Origin: Roseburia hominis
GTDB lineage: Bacteria; Bacillota; Clostridia; Lachnospirales; Lachnospiraceae
Length of the DNA stretch: 32,887 nt
NCBI GenBank assembly: GCA_021771815.1
Contig: JAETOE010000040.1
Location: forward strand, 1-32,887
Reading direction: 5' to 3'
The notes beneath the pieces are model-generated. The model saw only the letters and a list, made by a program, of their open reading frames with translations, did not search any database and was not told the DNA's origin. This document shows, piece after piece, positions 2,512 to 32,887 of this stretch. Position numbers and translations under genes: made by a program. The stretch's first letter is position 1, and every line of letters starts with the position of its first letter.

Positions 2512-4965
2512 TTACTTTTCCTTCTCCTCAAAAACAATCGCATTTTTCTTCGTGGTAACGACAACCTCACTGCCGTGTTTTACGCTTCCGTCCAGAATCT
2601 TTTCTGCAAGCTTATCCTCGATTTCCTCCTGGATTTTGCGGCGCAGCGGTCTTGCTCCGTATTTCGGTTCGTATGCCTTTTCCACGATATACTGTTTTGC
2701 AGCGTCGCGCACGACAAGCGCAATGCCAAGCTGCTTTTCGCAGCGCGCGGACAGTTCCTTTGTCATCAGTCCGACGATCTGCTTCATGTCCTCTTTGTTC
2801 AGGGAACGGAAAACAATCGTCTCATCGATGCGGTTCAAAAATTCCGGTTTAAAGATACGGCGCACTTCCTCCATAACACTGCCCTTCATGCGCTCGTAAT
2901 CCTGTTTTTCGTTTTCCGTCGATGCAAATCCGAGCTTCTTTGGCTCAACGATTGCCTGTGCTCCGGCGTTGGAGGTCATGATGATGATCGTATTTTTGAA
3001 ATCGACCTTCCTTCCCTGTGAATCCGTGATATGCCCGTCGTCAAGCACCTGAAGCAGAATATTGAACACGTCCGGATGCGCCTTCTCAATCTCATCGAAC
3101 AGGATGACGGAATACGGATTTCTACGCACCTTCTCACTGAGCTGTCCACCGTCCTCATGTCCGACATATCCGGGCGGCGAACCGATCATTTTGGAAACGC
3201 TGTGCTTCTCCATATACTCCGACATATCGACCCGGATCATTGCCTGCTCCTGACCGAACACTGCCTCCGCGAGCGCCTTGGAAATCTCGGTCTTGCCCAC
3301 TCCGGTCGGTCCCAGGAACAGAAACGAACCAATCGGGCGTTTCGGATCCTTTAAGCCGACTCTTCCTCTGCGCACTGCCTTTGCCACGGCTGTCACGGCT
3401 TCTTCCTGCCCGATGACGCGCTGATGCAGGGTCTTTTCCAGTCTGCGCAGCCTTGCCGCTTCCCCCTCCGCCAGCTTCTTTACCGGAATCTTCGTCCAAC
3501 CCGAAACAACGTCGGCGATCTCTTCCTCCCCGACCGTCAGATTCTTTCTCTGCCCTTCCCGCTTTGCCTTTGCGATCTGCTTCTGCTGACGCTCTAAGAG
3601 CATTTCCTTATTCGCCTTTGCAGCGCGCGCCCCCTCAATATCTCCTGCCATAAGCGCACTCTCAAGCGCATCTTCACTCTCTTTGATCTGTGTTTTTAGT
3701 TCCACGGCTTCGCGCGGATCTCCGCCCGCAAACAGCCGTACCTTCGCAGCCGCCTCGTCCATCAGATCAATCGCCTTATCCGGCAGGAAACGGTCGTTGA
3801 TATAACGTGCGGCAAGGCGCACGGAAGCTTCCACCGCCTCGTCCGTAATCGTCACCCTGTGATGCTGCTCATACTGGCTGCGCAGCCCCTTTAAAATCTG
3901 CACAGCCTCCTCCTCCGACGGCTCCTCCACGATCACGGGCTGAAAACGGCGCTCTAACGCCGCATCCTTTTCGATATATTTTCGATATTCTTCCATTGTA
4001 GTTGCGCCAATTACCTGAACCTCACCTCTGGCAAGCGCGGGCTTTAAAATATTGGACGCGTCAATCGCTCCCTCCGCGCCGCCTGCACCGATGATCGTAT
4101 GCATCTCATCAATGAACAGCAGAACATTTCCCACTTTCTTCACATCGGCGATGATCTTCTTGATGCGGTCCTCAAATTCGCCCCGGTACTTGGATCCCGC
4201 AACAATCCCAGACAAATCCAAAGAAACAACGCGCTTCCCAAGAACCGTATCAGGAACCATGCCCGTCGTGATGCGCTCCGCGATGCCTTCTACAATCGCA
4301 GTCTTTCCGACGCCCGGCTCACCGAGCAGACACGGATTATTCTTGCTCCTTCTGCTCAAGATCTGAATCACCCGGTCAATCTCCGCCTCTCTTCCGACGA
4401 CGGGATCGAGTGCTCCTGACGCCGCAAGCTCTGTCAAATCCCTGGAATACTGGTTCAGAAACGGCGTTCCCTCAGTATTTTTCTTGCGTCCCGGCTTTCC
4501 GTTCTGGAAATCCTCCTTGTAGAGATTCGCATCCTCCCCCATTGCGATCAGCGTATCCACATACATTTTCTGGATATTCACCGACAGCGTATTGAGCAGC
4601 CTTGACGCGACGCATTCCGTCTCTTTGACCATTGCAATCAGAATATGCTCCGTTCCGATTTTCTCCGAATGGAAACGCGCCGCCTCACGCCCCGCCCCTT
4701 CCAGGACGCGCATGGCGCGCGGAGAATACCCTCCTTCCTGCAGGATGACCGCGGAAGCAGGCGCAATCAGCTCTTCAATCAGTTCCAGTACCTTTTCTGT
4801 CTCTACACCGTTGTCCCCCAACACCTGCGCTGCGACTCCCGTTCCTTCTTTCAGAAGTCCGAGCAGGATATGTTCTGTCCCGATATAATTGTGATGCAGT
4901 GACTTTGACATTCGCGCGGCGATATCGACCGCTTTCTTCGCTTTCGCTGTATATGATGTCTGCAT
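2512..4965 (-). CDS. clpC: ATP-dependent Clp protease ATP-binding subunit ClpC
   Basis: Class I Hsp100 unfoldase, 817 aa, which feeds substrates to ClpP. Visible: two Clp-N repeats (about 1-140); D1 AAA+ with Walker A GEPGVGKT (215-222) and Walker B LLFIDE; the ClpC-type middle coiled coil (about 415-475); D2 with Walker A GPTGVGKT (552-559), pore loop GYVG (599-602) and Walker B ILFDE; and a KKLGF loop (676-680) matching the LGF/IGF motif that docks ClpP. AGGAGG lies 5 nt before the ATG. The stop codon of the upstream cohesin gene is 9 nt before the start and lies within this ribosome-binding region, so translation is probably coupled. The usual partners ctsR, mcsA and mcsB are absent upstream. 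Confidence 0.97.
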   Translation of the reverse strand: MQTSYTAKAKKAVDIAARMSKSLHHNYIGTEHILLGLLKEGTGVAAQVLGDNGVETEKVLELIEELIAPASAVILQEGGYSPRAMRVLEGAGREAARFHSEKIGTEHILIAMVKETECVASRLLNTLSVNIQKMYVDTLIAMGEDANLYKEDFQNGKPGRKKNTEGTPFLNQYSRDLTELAASGALDPVVGREAEIDRVIQILSRRSKNNPCLLGEPGVGKTAIVEGIAERITTGMVPDTVLGKRVVSLDLSGIVAGSKYRGEFEDRIKKIIADVKKVGNVLLFIDEMHTIIGAGGAEGAIDASNILKPALARGEVQVIGATTMEEYRKYIEKDAALERRFQPVIVEEPSEEEAVQILKGLRSQYEQHHRVTITDEAVEASVRLAARYINDRFLPDKAIDLMDEAAAKVRLFAGGDPREAVELKTQIKESEDALESALMAGDIEGARAAKANKEMLLERQQKQIAKAKREGQRKNLTVGEEEIADVVSGWTKIPVKKLAEGEAARLRRLEKTLHQRVIGQEEAVTAVAKAVRRGRVGLKDPKRPIGSFLFLGPTGVGKTEISKALAEAVFGQEQAMIRVDMSEYMEKHSVSKMIGSPPGYVGHEDGGQLSEKVRRNPYSVILFDEIEKAHPDVFNILLQVLDDGHITDSQGRKVDFKNTIIIMTSNAGAQAIVEPKKLGFASTENEKQDYERMKGSVMEEVRRIFKPEFLNRIDETIVFRSLNKEDMKQIVGLMTKELSARCEKQLGIALVVRDAAKQYIVEKAYEPKYGARPLRRKIQEEIEDKLAEKILDGSVKHGSEVVVTTKKNAIVFEEKEK

Positions 4966-4974
4966 AGCTTCCTC

Positions 4975-7281
4975 CTATAAATCATTGAAATCTATGATTT
5001 CCAAACCGCCCGTCTTTTTTGCAGCCGGAGCTGATTTCTCCTTCTTTCCTGCTCTTTCAGGCTTTTTTTGTTCCGTTTCCGCCGAAACCGGCTTTTCTTT
5101 CTGTATCGGCTGCACTTTTTCCGCCCGCACAGGTTTTTCTCTTTTCATTTCCGTTGAAATTTGCTTCTCTTCCCGTATCGGCTGCACCTTTTCCGCCCGC
5201 ACAGATTTTTCTCTTTTCATTTCCGTTGAAATTTGCTTCTCTTCCCGTATCGGCTGCACCTTTTCCGGTCTTGTCAGTTTCTCTGTCTTTAATTCTTCCG
5301 GAGCTGACTTCTGCTGCCCCGCTTCCGCCGAAACCTGCCTCTCTTCCCGTATCGGCTGCACCTTTTCCGCCCGCACAGGTTTTTCTCTTTTCACTTCTGT
5401 CGGAACCGGCTTCTCTGTTTCTGCTCCCGACGGAGTCTGCTTTTCCTCTTCGCCTTCTACAGAAACCGCGTTCTCCTGTCTGTTTTTCCTGTTCGAGACG
5501 TCGAGCACTTTCAATTCGCGCGGCTTTCCCCTCTTCTCTTTTACCGGAGCATCCTCCTCCGCGACATAATTTTCGTTGAAACGCTCGTCAAACATGTCGT
5601 CATCTGATGTCCCGTCAAGCCCATCATCCTCTTTTCCAGCGAAAATTCCCCGAAATCCTCTTCTTGCTTTTCTTTCTTCCGCTTCAGGCGCACGGTCAGC
5701 CTCTTCATCATCCGCAAAATCATCCTCCGAAAAATCATCATTATTTCCTTTGCGGAATCGGTGAATCAAAAGATTGATGATGACAATGACAAGCACTGCC
5801 AGAATAAATACCAGTACCGCCATCACATTTCTGGAAAATGCTTTCTCCTCGGTATACCGCTGTGAAAGCGCATCGTATTCTTCCTGAAGATATGTGATGT
5901 CCGTGTCGTCCGCCGCTTCCTCGTCCTGCTGCACGCCTATGGAATTCGCCCTCTGGTAAGTGCCTTCAAGTCCGTCATACTGATACCAGCCTTCCGTTCC
6001 GTCGCTGCTTGCCGCATAGAACATATAGAAATCAGATACCAGTTCCGTCTCCTCCTGCGCGGTCTGGTATGCCGTAATCGTTCCGGCATCCCCCGCCGCA
6101 AGCTCCGTCTGCACGTAATTCTCCGGCATCGTAAAATCAATCGGCGCAAGAAGCGCGATCACATATTTTTCCCCGTGGGAAAGCTTCACGAACGGGTAAC
6201 AGGTATCTCTGGTGCCGTCGTATACGAAGAACCGTCCCCCGGCGTCCGCCGCATCCGCAGTCTTCATCCACAAAAGTCCCAGCGACCCTTTCTCAAAGCT
6301 TACGCCTTTATAGTCCGTTCCATGATAATTTATCGTACCTTCCGCAAAATCAGCCGGAATATCCTCCGCCGTAAAATCGTCCGCGATCTGATACGGCGTT
6401 CCGCTGACCGTGACAGTCTCCCCTGCATATTCCGTCTGTTCCGGCGTCTCTTCCGCCTGCTCATTGTCCGAAGGCTCTGCTGTGGCGCCGCTCTGTTTTG
6501 TCACATTGATCGTGTAGGTCGCGGTCACGCCGTTTTCCGCCTTCACGACGACCTTGATCGTGTTCGCGCCCGCCTTCAACTCCGTATTTCCCGTGACAGA
6601 CTCTACGACTGCCTTGGCGTTGACCGGCGTTGCAGACACGGCAATGCTTGTCACGTCGCTGCCGACCATCGCGCTGTAGGTCGTTGTCTTTCCGGTAAAA
6701 GCCGGGGAAAGCGTACCCGGCGAAATCGTAAGGCTCTTTAAGGAGTTGTCCGCCGACTGCGTTCCGGTACCGCCCGCAGCCGTACCTGACGCATTTCCAG
6801 CAGTCGTTCCGGCACCGCCTGACGCATTTCCAGTAGCAGTTCCCGTGCCGCCCGCTGCATTATTCACCGTAACGGAAGCACTGCTGCCGGACATAGAGTC
6901 CATTTCTTCATTTGTATCAAAAATCACGCCGTCGCTGCCCGATACGGAAAGTGCGGCATTTCCCGCTCCGATCGCTTTTAAAGTGACCGTATAGCTTTCC
7001 CCGGTCGCGATCACGCTGCCGCCACCGCCGCCGTAGGTCGTATTGCAGTTCACGAACTGCAGCACATTCGCATCGTAGGAAAGCGTCATTGTCGCGTTCG
7101 CCTTCTCGCCGGACGGACCGCTCGCTTTTACTGTAACCGTAACGGTATCTCCTATATTGACATTTCCTGACGACACCGAGACAGATGTTGCGCCGCCTGC
7201 AGCCCACACTGTGTCCGCCGTCTGCGGTATCAACAACCACAGACACATTACCGCGATTATCATTCCAAGCTTCTTTTTCAT
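4975..7281 (-). CDS. Membrane-anchored cohesin-domain protein with cytoplasmic repeat tail
   Basis: 768 aa. A signal peptide (1-28, ending VWAAG) is followed by a cohesin-like domain (about 31-141), a Gly/Ala/Thr/Asn linker (142-178), a cadherin-like beta-sandwich domain (about 180-262, core TISPGTLSPAF), an extracytoplasmic domain I do not recognise (about 285-450), one transmembrane helix (about 486-506), and a 260-residue charged cytoplasmic tail with 24-residue repeats (about 630-740), ending EIIDFNDL. Cohesins bind dockerins, and the gene immediately upstream (18 nt away) encodes a dockerin protein, so this is most likely its membrane receptor. GGGAG lies 7 nt before the start. The cohesin call is from overall beta pattern and context; the dockerin next door strengthens it. 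The gene is coupled to clpC downstream. Confidence 0.85.
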   Translation of the reverse strand: MKKKLGMIIAVMCLWLLIPQTADTVWAAGGATSVSVSSGNVNIGDTVTVTVKASGPSGEKANATMTLSYDANVLQFVNCNTTYGGGGGSVIATGESYTVTLKAIGAGNAALSVSGSDGVIFDTNEEMDSMSGSSASVTVNNAAGGTGTATGNASGGAGTTAGNASGTAAGGTGTQSADNSLKSLTISPGTLSPAFTGKTTTYSAMVGSDVTSIAVSATPVNAKAVVESVTGNTELKAGANTIKVVVKAENGVTATYTINVTKQSGATAEPSDNEQAEETPEQTEYAGETVTVSGTPYQIADDFTAEDIPADFAEGTINYHGTDYKGVSFEKGSLGLLWMKTADAADAGGRFFVYDGTRDTCYPFVKLSHGEKYVIALLAPIDFTMPENYVQTELAAGDAGTITAYQTAQEETELVSDFYMFYAASSDGTEGWYQYDGLEGTYQRANSIGVQQDEEAADDTDITYLQEEYDALSQRYTEEKAFSRNVMAVLVFILAVLVIVIINLLIHRFRKGNNDDFSEDDFADDEEADRAPEAEERKARRGFRGIFAGKEDDGLDGTSDDDMFDERFNENYVAEEDAPVKEKRGKPRELKVLDVSNRKNRQENAVSVEGEEEKQTPSGAETEKPVPTEVKREKPVRAEKVQPIREERQVSAEAGQQKSAPEELKTEKLTRPEKVQPIREEKQISTEMKREKSVRAEKVQPIREEKQISTEMKREKPVRAEKVQPIQKEKPVSAETEQKKPERAGKKEKSAPAAKKTGGLEIIDFNDL
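5062..5394 (-). repeat. 72-nt in-frame tandem repeats in the cohesin protein tail
   Basis: The 13-mer GTATCGGCTGCAC (plus strand) recurs at 5103, 5175 and 5247, exactly 72 nt apart, and again at 5349 after 102 nt. Each 72-nt unit encodes 24 residues built around VQPIREEKQIST and KREKPVRAEK. The units at 5103-5246 are almost identical at DNA level, which points to recent duplication or homogenisation. The copy number could vary between strains. Confidence 0.9.
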
Positions 7282-7298
7282 CTTAATTCTCCCAACTT

Positions 7299-9584
7299 CT
7301 ACTGGGTAATCTGTGAAATTCCCAGTATATGCTTCTGTAAAATAACAAGGTCTTTATTAGATACTCCGCCGTCCCTGCTCGTGTTCGCCGCTTCCAGATA
7401 GCAGCCGGACTGCCCTGTGATTCCCAGAATCTGCTTCTGCATCAGCACAAGGTCAACATTGGACACTCTTCCGTCTCCGTTGATATCGCCGTAAATGACC
7501 AGCTCATACTGCTGCACCAGCGCACCCTGCGCATAGATTTCAAGCCTGCAGCCCGTGCCGACCGCCCCGTTGTTCTCACCGCCGGCAGCATTCACGACGC
7601 GCGCCGTACAGTTCTGTGCCGACACGCCTGCCAGGATATCGCCTGCAGTCGCTCCCGGCGAAATTCCGGTGATATAATTGCCAGCCACCGGATACGCGAG
7701 GGTGACTGTCGCTCCCTCCGCCACCGTAATCGCACTGCCTGCCGCCTGCGGCTGGCATCTTGCGACCGCGATCGTATAGGTCCTTGTGCTGCCGCTCTGC
7801 GAAATACAGGTAATATTAATAGTATTATTACCGTAATTCAAGGAATAATTACCTGTGCCTGACACCTGCGACGTGCCCGCCACCGCCGTCGCGCCGACCG
7901 TAACAGAGGAAACGCTCTCCGGCACGACAAGCGAGTAGGAAGTATTTGCCCCGCCAAATGCCGGCGTCAGACTATAACCGTCAATCGTGATCGACGACAG
8001 CCAGTTGTTCGGATTTCCTTTGTCAGAAAATCCCACTGCCGACAACGGCATATTCATATAGACCGGAATACGGAAAACGAACGCCTGATTCTTGTCCGCA
8101 TACGCCTTGCCCATATTAACGCCTTCACTCATCGCCGCCTGCACGTTCGTCATGTACTGGTGCGTATATAAACTGTTCTGATATACCACATTGAACTTTT
8201 CAAAATAAATGGTATTCTGACCTTTTTTCACATAATTATTTGCGACAACATTCGAACCTCCCGCGATCGATTTATAGATTGAGTTCCATCCCTGCTGCTT
8301 TGCATAAGCAAGGCCGTTGACCGCCGCCGATGCCGTCCCTGTCGTAAACGCACGGACATTAAAATGATTGTAATATCCTTCATACCCCGTGTAACGCCCG
8401 GAAATCAAAGGGCTTGTCCCCTGTACCCCCTGTTCCTGCTTGCAGCGCGCAGCAAGATGATAAGGGCTTACTCCGAGGCTTACTCCGATCTCCATGAACG
8501 TGTCCGCATAGCTGCGGGTCACGCCGTCCGTATCCGTATAATTTCCTGCCATAAAGGTATTGGAGAGAATGTTTCCAACGCCCGCCGCATTCTGGTACTG
8601 TGCATACTCCAGCGTCTCAAACTGGAAAATCTGCGTCTCGTTCAGAAAATTCCTCGGGTCCATACAGTACGCTATGTACTCCGGCGACGCTGATACCCAG
8701 CCAGCGCCGTCAAATCCATACCACGAATTTGTCGCCCAGTTGTACGCCGCGCTGTCCGTGGACTTTCTCGCGTCGTTGACCGAACTTTGAATCAGATTCC
8801 TTCCGACCACACTCTCGTTTTCGACTGCCGTGTTCCAGTCAATCCCCGTCTGCACCGGAACAAATTGCCAGTTCGGATATTTCTGATGAAGCGCCAGAAG
8901 CGGGGCCAGGTAACTCTCCGGAAATCCGGCCGCCTGCAGCGCGCTTATGTATTCGCTGTCCGCCGCGGAGACTGCCGCACCGCCCTCCGCCGGCGCACCG
9001 TTCACCGACACATAATCGGCGCATATAAAACCTGTATAGGAACTGCCGCCCACGGTAAGCGACACATTGTACCATTTCATGCCGCCCGCTTCCTGCTGTC
9101 CCAATATGGTAACCGCCTGCCCTTTATACACCTTCGTCACGGCAGAATAGGAAGTGCCCGCACCGGAGCGCACATAGACGCCGAGATTCGTATTTGCAAC
9201 AACGCCGCTCTCCGCCGACGCGCCGCCCGTTGTCTGTCCTTCCGCGGCAGGCGCATCCTGCCCCGCCGTCTGCAGCGTTACAAAATCCGACCGGATATAT
9301 CCGGTCATGCCGGACACCTGAATCTGATACCAGGTATACCCGTCCGCTCCGGCAGTCTCCTCAATCACCGTCACCGCAGTTCCCGGATAGAGCAGCGTGA
9401 CCTTCTCCCCGTCTACGGGCGCGTTGCGCACACGCACAGGACCGTCGTTGACCGTTCCCGCCGTCGGCGTATATGCGTAAACAAAAACGGCGTCTCCCAG
9501 AACAGACAGACCGGCAGCCATCATCCCAAAACAGATGGCTGCCAGTAAAATCCATTTGTGCTTTCTATAGAAAGGCTCGCTCAT
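7299..9584 (-). CDS. Secreted SH3 / N-acetylglucosaminidase-like protein with C-terminal dockerin
   Basis: 761 aa. N-terminal signal sequence (about 12-37), two bacterial SH3 domains (about 42-105 and 128-196), a glucosaminidase-like catalytic region (about 215-490) with a candidate acid Glu in ARCKQEQG (E384), a cadherin-like beta-sandwich domain (about 528-608) of the same kind as in the neighbouring cohesin protein, and a type I dockerin (about 698-758). The dockerin shows two calcium loops, DINGDGRVSNVD (700-711) and NTSRDGGVSNKD (734-745), each followed by the L-x-x-x-Q-K-x-I-L-G helix. It is predicted to cleave peptidoglycan glycan strands outside the cell. GGAGG lies 5 nt before the ATG, and a consensus promoter sits at 9638-9666. 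First gene of the dockerin-cohesin-clpC unit. Confidence 0.93.
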   Translation of the reverse strand: MSEPFYRKHKWILLAAICFGMMAAGLSVLGDAVFVYAYTPTAGTVNDGPVRVRNAPVDGEKVTLLYPGTAVTVIEETAGADGYTWYQIQVSGMTGYIRSDFVTLQTAGQDAPAAEGQTTGGASAESGVVANTNLGVYVRSGAGTSYSAVTKVYKGQAVTILGQQEAGGMKWYNVSLTVGGSSYTGFICADYVSVNGAPAEGGAAVSAADSEYISALQAAGFPESYLAPLLALHQKYPNWQFVPVQTGIDWNTAVENESVVGRNLIQSSVNDARKSTDSAAYNWATNSWYGFDGAGWVSASPEYIAYCMDPRNFLNETQIFQFETLEYAQYQNAAGVGNILSNTFMAGNYTDTDGVTRSYADTFMEIGVSLGVSPYHLAARCKQEQGVQGTSPLISGRYTGYEGYYNHFNVRAFTTGTASAAVNGLAYAKQQGWNSIYKSIAGGSNVVANNYVKKGQNTIYFEKFNVVYQNSLYTHQYMTNVQAAMSEGVNMGKAYADKNQAFVFRIPVYMNMPLSAVGFSDKGNPNNWLSSITIDGYSLTPAFGGANTSYSLVVPESVSSVTVGATAVAGTSQVSGTGNYSLNYGNNTINITCISQSGSTRTYTIAVARCQPQAAGSAITVAEGATVTLAYPVAGNYITGISPGATAGDILAGVSAQNCTARVVNAAGGENNGAVGTGCRLEIYAQGALVQQYELVIYGDINGDGRVSNVDLVLMQKQILGITGQSGCYLEAANTSRDGGVSNKDLVILQKHILGISQITQ

Positions 9585-12451: not shown

Positions 12452-12489
12452 AAAGGACTGTCATTCGCCCGGCGACTGGCAGTCTTTTT
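12452..12489 (+). terminator. Terminator of the phosphofructokinase gene, inside the hydrolase 3' end
   Basis: GACTGTCA (12456-12463) pairs with TGGCAGTC (12477-12484) with one G-T pair, the inner CGCC/GGCG extends the stem, and TTTTT follows on the plus strand. The last codons of the convergent hydrolase gene (stop at 12461-12463) form the right part of the stem. Confidence 0.75.
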
Positions 12490-13405
12490 GCAGCACGTCG
12501 ATAAATTTACCGATTTCGACCCACGCCTTCCTGGACTCCGGCAGCATCTTTGCCGCCATCTGGAAAATGTGGAACATCCCTTCATAGATACTCAGACGCA
12601 CTTTCACGCCCTGTTGTCTCGCTTTTGCCGCGACGTCCACGGAATCGGAAAGCAGCATCTCATACGAGCCGACCTGTATCAGCATCGGCGGAAATCCTCG
12701 GAAATCCCCAAACATCGGAGAGATATACACATCCATCGGATCATGTTCTCCCACATAATCGCGATTGTAGATCAAACTGTCTCTCGTCTTTCCAAACAGC
12801 GGGTCTTTCTCATAATTCGTATCGTAGGACTCGCCGCTTGCCGTCAGATCCGTCCACGGCGACATCGCAACAATGCCGCACGGGAGCTGCCTGCCTGCGT
12901 CCTTCAGATAATGGCAGAGCGCCATGGCAAGTCCGCCCCCCGCGGAATCTCCCGCCACAATGATCTGTTCCGAGAACCATCCCTGCGCAATCAGCCAGTC
13001 ATACGCTGCGACTGCGTCCTCAAGCGCTGCCGGATAGGGATGCTCCGGCGCTACCCTGTAATCCGGCGTAAGCACGCTCATCCCGTGGCTCACCTCGCTG
13101 TAAAGTCCCGCGAACATACGGTACGCATTGCGCATCGCGCCCACATAACCGCCGCCGTGGAGCTGCAAGATGATCTTATCCGTATTCGGCTCTTCCTTCA
13201 ATGTGAGCAGCTCCATCTCGAATTGCTCCATCGAAATAAACTGTCTGTCGAAATGCTCCGGGCATTTCCACGGCGGCTCCGCGTTTCCGATCCGTTTGCG
13301 TAGCTCGCCGTTTTTTATCTTCTTTCCGATCACGAGGTCATTTGTCATATGAGCTATCATATCCCGCATGACTTTTCCCCGGATACTCGCCTCATTTTCC
13401 CTCAT
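12461..13405 (-). CDS. Alpha/beta hydrolase, hormone-sensitive-lipase (HSL) type esterase
   Basis: 314 aa. The HSL oxyanion motif HGGG is at 83-86, the nucleophile elbow GDSAG at 152-156 (Ser154), with Asp254 (LLSDS) and His279 (GMFHIF) completing a visible catalytic triad. No signal peptide, so it is probably a cytoplasmic carboxylesterase acting on short-chain esters. AGGAG lies 8 nt before the start. Last gene of an operon with an alcohol-acetyltransferase-like protein and a DUF6320 protein (21-bp gap from the latter), so it may cut or recycle the ester that its neighbour makes. Confidence 0.92.
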   Translation of the reverse strand: MRENEASIRGKVMRDMIAHMTNDLVIGKKIKNGELRKRIGNAEPPWKCPEHFDRQFISMEQFEMELLTLKEEPNTDKIILQLHGGGYVGAMRNAYRMFAGLYSEVSHGMSVLTPDYRVAPEHPYPAALEDAVAAYDWLIAQGWFSEQIIVAGDSAGGGLAMALCHYLKDAGRQLPCGIVAMSPWTDLTASGESYDTNYEKDPLFGKTRDSLIYNRDYVGEHDPMDVYISPMFGDFRGFPPMLIQVGSYEMLLSDSVDVAAKARQQGVKVRLSIYEGMFHIFQMAAKMLPESRKAWVEIGKFIDVLQKDCQSPGE

Positions 13406-13426
13406 TTGTTCACACTCCTGCCGCGG

Positions 13427-14095
13427 TCAGCGTATATGAAACCTACGCTTAAGCTCCGTCCGCGCCCTCCTGTCCCCGATAATCAGCGTTCCGAGAAACA
13501 ACGCCGCAGAACATGCGAATGCAACGCCCGCAAGCAGCGGCTTCGTCACACCCCATCCCATCACATAAAACAAAAGCGTCAGTGCGCTGCACAGAATCAT
13601 GAAAAGCTGCAGCATCATATAGCTCTGCCAGTTTCTGTGGTTGACGATCATAAGCGCCAGAATCGCCGCATCGATCAAAAGAATTGCGGACGGCAGCACG
13701 TAGTTGACTGCCCAGCCCTGATATCCGACCACAAAATCAATCGCCACGAGCATCAGAAGCGCAATCAGCGTCAGCACGATCGTCTTGCTCTGGTAGCCCG
13801 ATTTTCCCAGAATCGCATACCTAAGCAGCATATATCCGTAGAAAAGTGCCAGCCCGGAAATCGCGCTCCAAAAAATCTGAAATTCATATGCCACATTCAC
13901 ATAGACAAGCAGCGCCTCCACGATGATCGCGCAGAACAAGTAGATATGGCTGATCAGCATAAGCCGCCTTGTCGTCATACGCACATTCGGATACATATTC
14001 TCGACTTCAATCGTCTTCTCAAGCACCGCTTTACAGAGCGGGCATCTCTCCGTCTCATCCAAAATTTCAATATTACATTGCTTACATTTACTCAT
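13427..14095 (-). CDS. DUF6320-type zinc-ribbon membrane protein
   Basis: 222 aa. An N-terminal zinc ribbon (C4, C7, C18, C21; CKQC and CPLC) is followed by about six hydrophobic helices from residue 45 to 210 and a basic C-terminus. The family (DUF6320, as I recall it) occurs next to alcohol-acetyltransferase-like genes; function unknown. The start overlaps the end of the upstream acyltransferase gene by 8 bp (ATGAGTAA), with GGAG 6 nt before it, so the two are translationally coupled and probably act together at the membrane. Confidence 0.85.
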   Translation of the reverse strand: MSKCKQCNIEILDETERCPLCKAVLEKTIEVENMYPNVRMTTRRLMLISHIYLFCAIIVEALLVYVNVAYEFQIFWSAISGLALFYGYMLLRYAILGKSGYQSKTIVLTLIALLMLVAIDFVVGYQGWAVNYVLPSAILLIDAAILALMIVNHRNWQSYMMLQLFMILCSALTLLFYVMGWGVTKPLLAGVAFACSAALFLGTLIIGDRRARTELKRRFHIR

Positions 14096-15440
14096 AGTTC
14101 ACTCCATTACTGTCCACTTCCACCCGGATTCCGTCCGCGGCAATCTTGCGGAAAAATCCTCTCTGGACAGAAGCGTCCACCAGATCATAGCTAAAGGAAA
14201 AGACAAGCGTCTCCCCGTAGGAACAGATCGTACCCTTTAGATGCTGCCCCTTCGACATTGCTAGAAACGCGTGAAACATTTCCACATAAGGCTGATATTC
14301 CTCCGCCACCGTGATATTGCCGATATTCGTCACCGTCGCCGTGTTCGCAAGCGCAGACGTGGTGTACACGTAACGCATCGCCAGATTCTTAAGAAAAAGC
14401 GGCACGGCGCGGGCAACCAAAAGCTTCTCGTTTGATACGTTGTAGGAGAACAATTCTTCCAGATGTTCCCGCTCGATCTGGCTGCGCAGACTTGTGCTTA
14501 CGATTTCGAGCACTTCCGTGAAGGTATAGATATCCTTCGTCGGATGAAATTCCGCCGATACCATAACGAAAAAGTTCTTGGTCGTAATCGAGTTGAAATA
14601 CGGGCGCAGATTTACCGGAACAGCCACGCGAATCGGCTTCTCCGATACCATACCGTGCAGACATTCCGTGTACACGCTCCAAATGTAGACCGCCACCAGA
14701 TATTCATTGATGCTGACGCCGTACCGATGGCAGACCTCCTTCAATTCCGGTATCTTCATATAACCATGCATGACGCCGAATTCTCCCGCCGGAAGCTTCT
14801 CCCCTTTGATCAGGTAAGCGCGCTTCGTCTGATACCCCTTATGAGCGCTTTTCTTATAATTCTTAAGAAAACTGTCCTCACGGTTCATCGAAGTGTCGCT
14901 GTTTAGAGAATCCCCCACTTTCTCCTTAAGCTCGGGATGCGCCAGTCTCAAATACTGGTAGGTAAGCTCCTTCAAAAAATTGATGCCGCCCATTCCGTCG
15001 GTGAGGACATGGAACACTTCAAGATTGATGCGGTACTTGTAATAAGTTACCCGGAACATATAACTGTGATTCTTATTCTGCCGGATAAAACGACACGGAA
15101 AATTGCTCTCCTCGCGTACCCTCGGCGCCGGCTTGCCGTTCTCCTCAAAATAATACCAGAACACGCCCTGCCGCAAACGCAGATTAAAGCCGTCGAACTT
15201 CGGCAGCACGATGTCAAGCGCCTGCTGTAATAATTGCCGGTCTACAAGCTCCGTCAGCGTCACGCTGATCCGGTACACATTACTCATGCTCTCCCCCGCA
15301 ATTACCGGAAAGAGATGCGCCGTATTATCGAGACGGTCCCAGCGAATCTCCCGCTGCGGCTTACGCTCCTTGCTCCCGCGCCCTTTTTCTGACTTCTCCG
15401 AAGTCTCCTTCGGCGTCGCTGTCTGATCCTTTTTCTTCAT
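14088..15440 (-). CDS. Alcohol acetyltransferase / condensation-like acyltransferase
   Basis: 450 aa. The condensation/acyltransferase superfamily active-site motif HxxxDG is present as HVLTDG (H144-G149), followed by GGINFLKEL. The C-terminal half (about 250-440) carries the second pseudo-domain, including the stretch RVAVPVNLRPYF typical of the DFGWG-equivalent region in PapA/AATase-like enzymes. The first 35 residues are Lys/Glu/Ser-rich and probably disordered. It should transfer an acyl group to an alcohol or amine acceptor; the substrate is unknown. First gene of the three-gene leftward operon. The ribosome binding site is weak (AGAGAG). Confidence 0.85.
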   Translation of the reverse strand: MKKKDQTATPKETSEKSEKGRGSKERKPQREIRWDRLDNTAHLFPVIAGESMSNVYRISVTLTELVDRQLLQQALDIVLPKFDGFNLRLRQGVFWYYFEENGKPAPRVREESNFPCRFIRQNKNHSYMFRVTYYKYRINLEVFHVLTDGMGGINFLKELTYQYLRLAHPELKEKVGDSLNSDTSMNREDSFLKNYKKSAHKGYQTKRAYLIKGEKLPAGEFGVMHGYMKIPELKEVCHRYGVSINEYLVAVYIWSVYTECLHGMVSEKPIRVAVPVNLRPYFNSITTKNFFVMVSAEFHPTKDIYTFTEVLEIVSTSLRSQIEREHLEELFSYNVSNEKLLVARAVPLFLKNLAMRYVYTTSALANTATVTNIGNITVAEEYQPYVEMFHAFLAMSKGQHLKGTICSYGETLVFSFSYDLVDASVQRGFFRKIAADGIRVEVDSNGVNYE

Positions 15441-30733: not shown

Positions 30734-31441
30734 TTATTTTTTATAGTGAACCAAATCATATGGATAATACGGTACATCCTTTAAACTACTATCATCCAGA
30801 ATTAGTATTTTTGCAATAGCACCTGCTTCAAAGCTCCAGTACCCATAATACACATTTTTGCTTGATTTATGACTATCATGCCAAGCACATTCTCTATGTA
30901 TTTCATACCATTTCTCCTGTAAATACTCTTTCAATTCTTCGCAAACTGTTTCTCCATCGTTTTCCAAAATTTGTTTTAAGCAATCGTACACTTTAAATTC
31001 GGACTCTGCCCCTCCTCTTTCCCAAGTGGGATCAATTTTTTTTATTAAACAATTTGCCAAATAATCATCAAATTTTTCAGATATAAGTTTTTCCTTTAAT
31101 TCAAAGATGTCACTCCTATTAACTTCGAACAATACTGCTAATGAAAGCACTTTTATCAACTCAATATAGCCATATTTTCTGTCCCACATCTTACTATAAT
31201 AAAACAATAATTTTTTGTAAACTTCTTCGATCGCATCCAAATCTTCTCCTAAAGAATATAGTAAATTTATTTCCTTTTCATAAGAATTAATCAAAATGCT
31301 ATATCCATTACGAACACCTCTATCTAATTCTCCCTTTTCAAGAGCCGTTTTTTTTACGGCATCTTCAAACATTATTACACTTTCATTTTCCTTTTGAATT
31401 AACGTGTAAAAATAGTGTTCATCTTTCATTCTATCTCTCAT
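30734..31441 (-). CDS. PoNi-type immunity protein (DUF1910/DUF1911)
   Basis: 235 aa, cytoplasmic, mostly helical. The N-terminal half (about 45-115, GYSILINSYEKEINLLYSLG) matches the PoNi_N (DUF1910) pattern, and the C-terminal half carries the PoNi_C (DUF1911) hallmark YYGYWSFEAGAIAKILILDD, followed by SSLKDVPYYPYDLVHY. PoNi proteins neutralise PoNe DNase toxins by direct binding. The gene lies 12 bp after the toxin gene, and its ribosome binding site AGGAG overlaps the toxin stop, so the two are coupled. Low GC like the toxin tip. A second in-frame ATG lies at codon 5. Confidence 0.92.
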   Translation of the reverse strand: MRDRMKDEHYFYTLIQKENESVIMFEDAVKKTALEKGELDRGVRNGYSILINSYEKEINLLYSLGEDLDAIEEVYKKLLFYYSKMWDRKYGYIELIKVLSLAVLFEVNRSDIFELKEKLISEKFDDYLANCLIKKIDPTWERGGAESEFKVYDCLKQILENDGETVCEELKEYLQEKWYEIHRECAWHDSHKSSKNVYYGYWSFEAGAIAKILILDDSSLKDVPYYPYDLVHYKK

Positions 31442-31453
31442 TTTTTAACTCTC

Positions 31454-32887
31454 CTATCGTTCGATTCCATCAATCAGTTCCGTTATATCAATCCTACCAT
31501 CTACTGAGACATGAACCAATGAAGAACCTACATTATCTGGATTTAAAATCATTTCCATTTTAATATCATTGGCAACATTTTCACCAACAGCATTTTCTAA
31601 TCTATCAATTATCCATTTATCACTCATCTGTGGAGTTCCATCCGCAAGTGTATACAATCTTGAATTACCATACTTTGCTTCTCCAATTATATATGGCGGA
31701 TGACCGTCCGGGTTGTAATATACTCCATCTATCCCTTGATGAGTTGGTGTATTCAAATCGGTTACTTTATCGAGACTTATTCTCTCATATCCCTGACTTT
31801 CGAAATATGCATCCATCTTCATCTCTCCATAATTTCCTTTTTGAATATTATTATTTAATAAGATATCACCATTCTCTACACCTTTTATAATATCATCTAC
31901 AGAATTTAAACCGCCCTCTATTACCTCATCCACCGTCTTCGCCGCTCCCGCTGCATCTTCCGCTGTCTCCGCTGCATCCGCCGCCCTCTGTGCCTTCCTT
32001 GCCGCTTCCGCCGCATCGTCCGCCGTATCCGCCGCCTTCGCAGTTCCTTTCACCTTTTTAAGTCCCTTTGCCGCAAGAATATCCACTACCACGTCCAGTC
32101 CGAGATACCCTATGGCATATGCAAGCCCCTCTTCCTCGTAAGTGTCCGTCGCACTCTGCCCCAACGCTTCAAGCGATTTAAACGGGTCTTTTAACATAGC
32201 CTGCATTCCTGCATCAATGCCCCTCACCCGCTCTTCCACCTCGTCCGGCAGTGACACTACTCCCGAAAATACAAATCCGCCAAATGCGAGATAAAGTGCA
32301 AAAGATAAGGCGCCGTCTAGCGCCTCCACTCCCGCGTCAAACACACCCCGCACAGCATTTCCTGTAGTTTTCTTTAGAAAGTCCCACTTATTTCCGATCG
32401 TCTCCCACATATCATAGTAAAATCGTGCCTGATCTGCGTAATCGTCATCCGTATTTTCAAACGGAACAATGGATTCCTTATAGATGCGTTGTATCTCCTC
32501 CAGTTCCTCGCGAAAAATGCAAAAAGCTCTGCTCACACTGCCGCTTCGAAAAGCCGCAAGTGTATTGTAATTCTTCTCCCTCCTTATCCTCTCTCGTTCT
32601 TCCTCCTCAAGGATAAGCCTTGCTTCCTCCGTCGACCGGTTCCACAGAAAATGCTTATAATCAGGGAACGAACTGCCGGAATCATAGGCGATCTCATTGA
32701 CCGTCAGAATTCCATCTGCAATCTGAGAAATATTATAGGAAATATCATTCCTGTCTACACGCATCATAGCGCCCGCATTCACGGGCGCTATGTATGCTTT
32801 CATGTCGTCAATATAATTTGACAGCATCGTTTCCATGATTGTCAAGCGCTCTTCCATTTCATCTATGTACCCTATAATACCCTTTTC
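31454..32887 (-). CDS. LXG-type polymorphic toxin with PoNe DNase tip (5' end outside the window)
   Basis: The reading frame is open to the window edge: ten more codons (EKGIIGYIDE) precede the first visible ATG at 32857, which has no ribosome binding site, so the gene is partial. The helical N-terminal part with YIDDMKAYIAPVN resembles the second half of an LXG domain, the secretion domain of type VIIb effectors. Numbered from 32857: a hydrophobic segment (about 180-202), an Ala/Asp/Lys-rich linker (about 270-308), and the nuclease tip (about 335-467) with E345 (GNYGEMKMD), D377 (QGIDGVYY), and E393-x-K395 (GEAKYG), the PD-(D/E)xK pattern of PoNe DNases. The adjacent PoNi gene supports the assignment. 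GC drops sharply at about 31915, where the tip begins. Confidence 0.9.
   Translation of the reverse strand, partial: EKGIIGYIDEMEERLTIMETMLSNYIDDMKAYIAPVNAGAMMRVDRNDISYNISQIADGILTVNEIAYDSGSSFPDYKHFLWNRSTEEARLILEEEERERIRREKNYNTLAAFRSGSVSRAFCIFREELEEIQRIYKESIVPFENTDDDYADQARFYYDMWETIGNKWDFLKKTTGNAVRGVFDAGVEALDGALSFALYLAFGGFVFSGVVSLPDEVEERVRGIDAGMQAMLKDPFKSLEALGQSATDTYEEEGLAYAIGYLGLDVVVDILAAKGLKKVKGTAKAADTADDAAEAARKAQRAADAAETAEDAAGAAKTVDEVIEGGLNSVDDIIKGVENGDILLNNNIQKGNYGEMKMDAYFESQGYERISLDKVTDLNTPTHQGIDGVYYNPDGHPPYIIGEAKYGNSRLYTLADGTPQMSDKWIIDRLENAVGENVANDIKMEMILNPDNVGSSLVHVSVDGRIDITELIDGIER

Follow-up and report, generated by a model that had tools for sequence, protein, structure and literature searches.

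We asked what a dockerin and a cohesin, modules of cellulosomal families, are doing on a wall-hydrolase-type enzyme and a membrane protein that are encoded by adjacent genes in Roseburia hominis. The analysed DNA (the window) comprises 32,887 nucleotides, positions 1 to 32,887 of contig JAETOE010000040.1 (assembly GCA_021771815.1). On its minus strand a promoter-like site is followed by the gene of the enzyme (P2), 17 nt, the gene of the receptor (P1), 9 nt and clpC. The promoter-like site is a consensus match alone, and 10 such sites occur in the region against 5.9 expected. A first-pass annotation of the letters had described an SH3/glucosaminidase with a two-loop dockerin beside a single-span cohesin protein, which gene order and domain content confirmed, and a cadherin-like domain in both, which a domain search found. 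We consider it fairly probable that P2 is the enzyme and P1 the receptor of a private module in the cell envelope, joined by a dockerin-cohesin tether. Thus the observation made by the annotation was sound, and its interpretation was supported in part, namely for the private pair, the fold, the wall-hydrolase type and the non-cellulosomal nature of the complex.

P2 consists of a signal sequence (seen by eye, from which the protein is probably exported), SH3_3 domains, a glucosaminidase domain, a cadherin-like domain and a type I dockerin (PF00404) with two Ca-binding loop-helix repeats. The glucosaminidase domain aligned with 6fxo and with chain B of 6u0o, which we take to be the SagB-SpdC complex, and is related to AtlA-GL and SagB. 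Glu384 of P2 aligned with the Glu of AtlA-GL that is described as catalytic in the accessible part of PMC7170848, and it was invariant in all 30 aligned P2 relatives (30/30); the YA(S/T)D substrate motif given in the same part of that source reads YMTN in P2. The homologous catalytic domain and the catalytic Glu indicate that P2 is probably an N-acetylglucosaminidase of the SagB/AtlA type and, together with the SH3 domains, agree with the earlier assignment of the partner as a wall hydrolase. P2 scored 50.4 bits against a curated cut-off of 425 for the NCBIfam SagB family, indicating that it is not SagB itself; to our knowledge, SagB has no dockerin.

P1 is composed of a signal sequence (by eye), a cohesin, a cadherin-like domain, a conserved domain that we call X, one membrane span and an acidic tail of 262 residues. 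In a six-frame search its cohesin reached 25.8 bits against PF00963 (threshold 24.1). The genome, which is 99.99% complete, gave one dockerin match and one cohesin match, and these stand in the two adjacent genes ahead of clpC; the earlier suggestion of a private pair therefore held when further dockerins and cohesins were searched for. With one cohesin match in the genome there was no scaffoldin with several cohesins, and with one dockerin match there was no set of dockerin-bearing carbohydrate-active enzymes. Because both defining counts fail, the locus is not a cellulosome, and as the cargo is of the wall-hydrolase type, the view that the complex does not degrade fibre was retained. In a model of the close orthologue L103 the two modules took a dockerin fold and a cohesin fold, the closest solved folds to the latter being the Clostridium perfringens cohesins 2jh2, 2w1n and 2vo8, in agreement with the proposal that residues 31-141 of P1 are a cohesin.

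Is the pair peculiar to this genome? In a sample of the family (200 genomes, one per genus, window genome included) the X domain was present in 127, a Pfam cohesin in 84 and a Pfam dockerin in 75, and one genome carried at least 29 dockerins. Of 398 genomes sampled across the phylum, 6 had the X domain, four of them from the same family, own genome included. Receptor loci were resolved in 125 of the 126 other genera with an X domain. The gene directly upstream encoded a glucosaminidase with a dockerin in 36, a glucosaminidase without a dockerin in 31, an LCP (LytR_cpsA_psr) protein in 15, PurD in 11, GlmS in 1 and another product in 18; in 9 it lay on the opposite strand and in 4 the contig ended. 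Each neighbour label depends on similarity to a single reference (the window's ClpC, the Pfam-checked LCP of L072, and PurD and GlmS references named by eye). The missed genus (G189, locus L059) also has a dockerin enzyme and a receptor, so the 36 are a lower bound; a dockerin-glucosaminidase thus directly precedes the receptor in at least 36 of 199 other genera, and 34 of these receptors have a recognised cohesin. No second dockerin match was found in 29 of the 34. When the 83 cohesin genomes and 74 dockerin genomes other than that of the window were considered, 33 genera had a single Pfam dockerin and a single Pfam cohesin, and in 24 of these 33 the receptor followed a dockerin glucosaminidase. 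Among the best 80 of at least 577 P2 loci (contig ends not corrected for), 51 had a dockerin enzyme with a receptor, 14 a receptor without a recognised dockerin and 4 neither; among the named records that have the pair are Roseburia sp., Lachnospira multipara and uncultured Bacilli. L104 (Roseburia inulinivorans DSM 16841), counted among the 14, has the enzyme's dockerin out of frame in the draft record. The receptors of the 15 LCP loci (L072, L079, L080, L083, L091, L093, L094 and 8 more) have no recognised cadherin-like domain, and near some of these loci lie GlmS and what is, by eye, a glycosyltransferase-like gene. Since a single, adjacent pair recurs in many relatives, the cellulosome-type clasp is probably used in this setting to keep a wall enzyme at the membrane.

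On the basis of the gene order, the domains, the count of one and one, the orthologue folds, the recurrence and the conserved tail end described below, we propose how export, binding, the place and time of cutting and a cytosolic partner might fit together. P2 would be exported and its dockerin bound by the single cohesin on the outer side of P1, which would be anchored in the membrane through its one span. Tethered in this way, with its SH3 domains bound to the wall, P2 would stay on the side of the wall that faces the membrane and there cleave or shorten nascent glycan strands. On the inner side, a cytosolic partner would bind the conserved tail end of P1, and this contact would position the enzyme.

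Several results weigh against such a tether. An hmmscan of the P1 protein does not list PF00963. In a single-chain AF2 model of the L103 dockerin and cohesin, the dockerin blocks had pLDDT 90-97 and the cohesin blocks 62-96, and at pTM 0.49 (no pairwise error given) there was no confident docking; what had been expected of the structure was thus borne out in this orthologue for the cohesin fold and not for the placement of the dockerin on it. L103 was the modelled sequence in an alignment of 23 of the 25 in-frame dockerin-to-cohesin stretches, each joined across the stop that separates the two genes; the partial L043 was omitted, as was L108, which is close to L107. In eleven of the best 80 P2 loci no receptor adjoins the dockerin enzyme; 6 of them are labelled Ruminococcus, in L181 the receptor comes one gene later and in L133 the contig ends just past the enzyme. 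In L134, L140, L167, L174 and L177 (labelled Ruminococcus), where the receptor does not adjoin the dockerin glucosaminidase, the cohesin may lie elsewhere in the genome. Finally, of the 98 other genera whose receptor bears a cohesin, 48 have no PF00404 match in the genome, among them all 15 of the 15 genera with LCP upstream. Because of these 48 genera the cohesin probably has another ligand or role too, and dockerin binding can hardly be its sole role.

Could the dockerin then be incidental? The cohesin might have an older ligand, be it a glycan, a polymer of the wall or a different region of the enzyme; enzyme and receptor would then be held together by, for example, the cadherin-like domains that both carry, and the dockerin would be minor or bind elsewhere. 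The genera without a dockerin match fit this explanation, and so do the 31 of 125 loci in which the enzyme still precedes the receptor but has no recognised dockerin. Nevertheless we judge it unlikely, as the sole dockerin match of the genome adjoins its sole cohesin match and as the dockerin operon with a recognised cohesin is mostly free of any other dockerin match.

In a tree of 68 glucosaminidase domains (made by a quick method, with L051 and L069 on long branches) the distribution of the dockerin requires a minimum of 4 changes, counted without direction, 2 of which are forced by starred branches; the dockerin may be a tag gained and lost on an enzyme that already had its receptor. In eight dockerin-less enzymes (L086, L090, L097, L190, L191, L192, L228 and L229) the part past the last recognised domain is a Gly/Ser/Pro-rich stretch of 56-98 residues whose last ones are GGSNVTIVP or a near form, and the receptor keeps its cohesin; weaker or doubtful forms occur in L077, L231, L239 and L074. 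In the 8 peptide-class genomes the peptide pattern, which the L090 variant escapes, gave 13 matches (reversed control, 3). Seven were at the enzyme end, one each in 7 genomes, and 6 were elsewhere (4 within longer frames, 2 in frames 10 and 36 residues long); none of these 6 ends a plausible protein. The tree places the dockerin enzymes L042, L045 and L048 among the peptide-class enzymes (SH-aLRT 89, unstarred, drawn open). The cohesins of their receptors share 43-62% identity with ten peptide-group cohesins (L231 and L074 included) and 26-42% with nine other dockerin-class cohesins, that of the window among them. The tree position and these identities suggest that one cohesin type might serve either a dockerin or a peptide tag. 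An AF2 model of the L228 C-terminal peptide with the cohesin (L090 peptide row left out) gave cohesin blocks of 94-98, a peptide at pLDDT of about 55 with no strand, and pTM 0.61, and neither supports nor refutes the binding of the peptide.

A second kind of dockerin enzyme was found in L181, where a Peptidase_S11 D,D-carboxypeptidase with a C-terminal dockerin (L181:7910-9292) lies between the glucosaminidase and the receptor. In a protein search with this carboxypeptidase the best 9 matches (itself included, P0003-P0010 among them) carry Peptidase_S11 and a dockerin, and the other 111 among the 120 listed matches (1136 found) show no dockerin. It is possible, although somewhat doubtful, that the receptor is a family-wide one whose cohesin takes exchangeable wall-enzyme tags, the dockerin in some lineages (window included) and in others the GGSNVTIVP peptide, which would bind the same or a nearby site of an otherwise similar cohesin, with the carboxypeptidase of one lineage joined through a gained dockerin.

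We then asked whether the cytoplasmic side of P1 has a role of its own. The first-pass annotation had noted a long cytoplasmic repeat tail. The tail stands; its tandem repeats (2.5 copies of a 72-bp unit), which the tails of L103, L105 and L126 lack, are a local duplication, and the conserved part is the short C-terminal motif, as these three and P1 all end E[IV]IDFNDL. A hydrophobic-[DN]-hydrophobic motif lies within the last 14 residues of 76 of 103 long tails (window included), compared to 35 of 943 internal 14-mers and to a mean of 6.2 (maximum 17) in 2000 shuffles. It was present in 14/33 long tails with a dockerin enzyme upstream, 15/17 with an enzyme without dockerin, 15/15 with LCP, 7/11 with PurD, 1/1 with GlmS, 13/14 with another gene, 8/9 with the opposite strand and 3/3 at an edge, and in 3/21 short tails; with 14/33 it is weakest in the window's own class. 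A strict 21-base tail pattern matched P1 alone in its own genome (reversed control, one match in 21 genomes) and none of 12 other genomes of the genus, a weak test because the pattern demands a first residue that several orthologues lack. The Shine-Dalgarno-like GGAGG of clpC (by eye) overlaps the stop codon of P1 only, and the motif as a by-product of it was rejected.

The end of P1 lies only 9 nt from clpC. Of 124 receptors (window included; kinship ignored), 25 are followed directly by a ClpC-like gene and 12 of these have a D[LF]N[DN]L end, versus 0 of the 99 others. P1 might thus be mainly a client or membrane adaptor of ClpC, which would read the C-terminal motif, so that P1 turnover would set the amount of held hydrolase. 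This can be compatible with the tether. As the main role of P1 we find it quite improbable, since the broader motif is also found at the end of tails whose genes have different neighbours, among them every long tail with LCP upstream, and since gene order and motif may both follow descent. A cellulosome-like anchor, either a remnant or a minimal one, for breaking down polysaccharides outside the cell, which the cellulosomal families of both modules and the dockerin-rich genome in the family sample might recall, is very improbable, given one cohesin and one dockerin, the latter on a peptidoglycan-type glucosaminidase with SH3 domains, and a second dockerin enzyme that is a D,D-carboxypeptidase.

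How does the proposed module of P2 and P1 compare with known systems? It resembles cellulosomes in its dockerin and cohesin folds (type I cohesin-dockerin) and differs from them in having one of each module, a wall-hydrolase-type cargo and a receptor with a membrane span. The C. perfringens cohesins named above also act outside a cellulosome, but they belong to glycoside hydrolases (entry titles), whereas the P1 cohesin sits on a membrane receptor. The Limousia mucinolysome is likewise a cohesin-dockerin assembly of a gut Firmicute, but one with tandem-cohesin scaffoldins and many mucin enzymes (PMC12997984, in part). In role the pair is closest to a peptidoglycan enzyme with a membrane partner such as SagB-SpdC, to which the alignment of the P2 domain with 6u0o chain B also points. 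In the accessible part of PMC12272431, SpdC (LyrA) of Staphylococcus aureus, an integral membrane protein of the CAAX-protease family, binds and tunes the glucosaminidase and sets product length, and SagB-SpdC is thought to release nascent glycan from the membrane. P1 is an unrelated partner: it has one hydropathy span, cohesin, cadherin-like and X domains and no CAAX-protease-like Pfam match. By analogy, P2-P1 may work like SagB-SpdC while standing outside that system.

No dockerin-tagged glucosaminidase with a membrane cohesin was found among the titles and abstract openings listed by searches of the open-licence literature, subscription papers being outside the search. PMC6118326, in the part available, sorts Clostridiales into four classes by dockerin and cohesin counts, the private pair not among them, and the available parts of PMC2914790, PMC12997984 and PMC8865330 do not describe it. 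In a protein search with P1, PF00963 was on none of the 120 listed proteins (2083 found), so the pair may have escaped notice because its cohesin is too divergent for routine annotation.

Features of the P2-P1 locus (window positions)
Feature	Position	Strand	Basis or remark
Promoter-like site TTGACG-17-TATAAT, 5' of P2	9638..9666	-	11/12 consensus matches
P2, SH3-glucosaminidase-cadherin-dockerin protein, 761 aa	7299..9584	-	signal sequence by eye
Glucosaminidase (LYZ2-type) domain of P2, residues 208-513	8046..8963	-	alignment to 6fxo and 6u0o, relatives
Type I dockerin of P2, residues 698-754, two Ca-binding-type loops	7323..7493	-	PF00404; sole dockerin match in genome
P1, single-span membrane receptor, 768 aa	4975..7281	-	domain matches, hydropathy
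Cohesin of P1, residues 31-141	6859..7191	-	sole cohesin match in genome; fold of orthologue
Cadherin-like domain of P1, residues 181-262	6496..6741	-	domain search
X domain of P1, residues 289-445	5947..6417	-	conserved
Membrane span of P1, about residues 488-506	5764..5820	-	hydropathy alone
72-bp tandem repeat in P1 tail, 2.5 copies	5091..5267	-	units 95% identical
C-terminal tail motif LEIIDFNDL	4978..5004	-	conserved
clpC	2512..4965	-	starts 9 nt past P1

The X domain had no confident sequence relative in Pfam or PDB. Elongation factor G was rejected, its best PDB-sequence profile match having only E 0.011 and others being worse, as were Pfam families, whose matches were scattered (best DUF5648, 2.2e-4 in 1 of 38 members). 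By eye the domain resembles two pseudo-repeats closing with a kelch-like GxYxYD...E.T.QRY pattern, and in some relatives the second half alone is recognised. Elsewhere in the window, on the minus strand, a PoNe immunity protein (PoNi, 30734-31441) adjoins a 467-residue open reading frame without Pfam match (31454-32857), and a DUF6320 protein, a 450-residue open reading frame without Pfam match and an alpha/beta hydrolase lie side by side (12461-15440).

If the tether between P2 and P1 is real, cohesin-dockerin recognition also serves wall upkeep in many gut bacteria, beyond fibre digestion, and with one cohesin and one dockerin the pair offers a simple two-protein case for testing the job of the clasp. 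If the cohesin takes exchangeable tags, the cellulosome clasp would be one form of a general tether for peptidoglycan enzymes. A real tether would also give these bacteria their own way to hold a wall-cutting enzyme at the membrane, comparable to SagB-SpdC in staphylococci.
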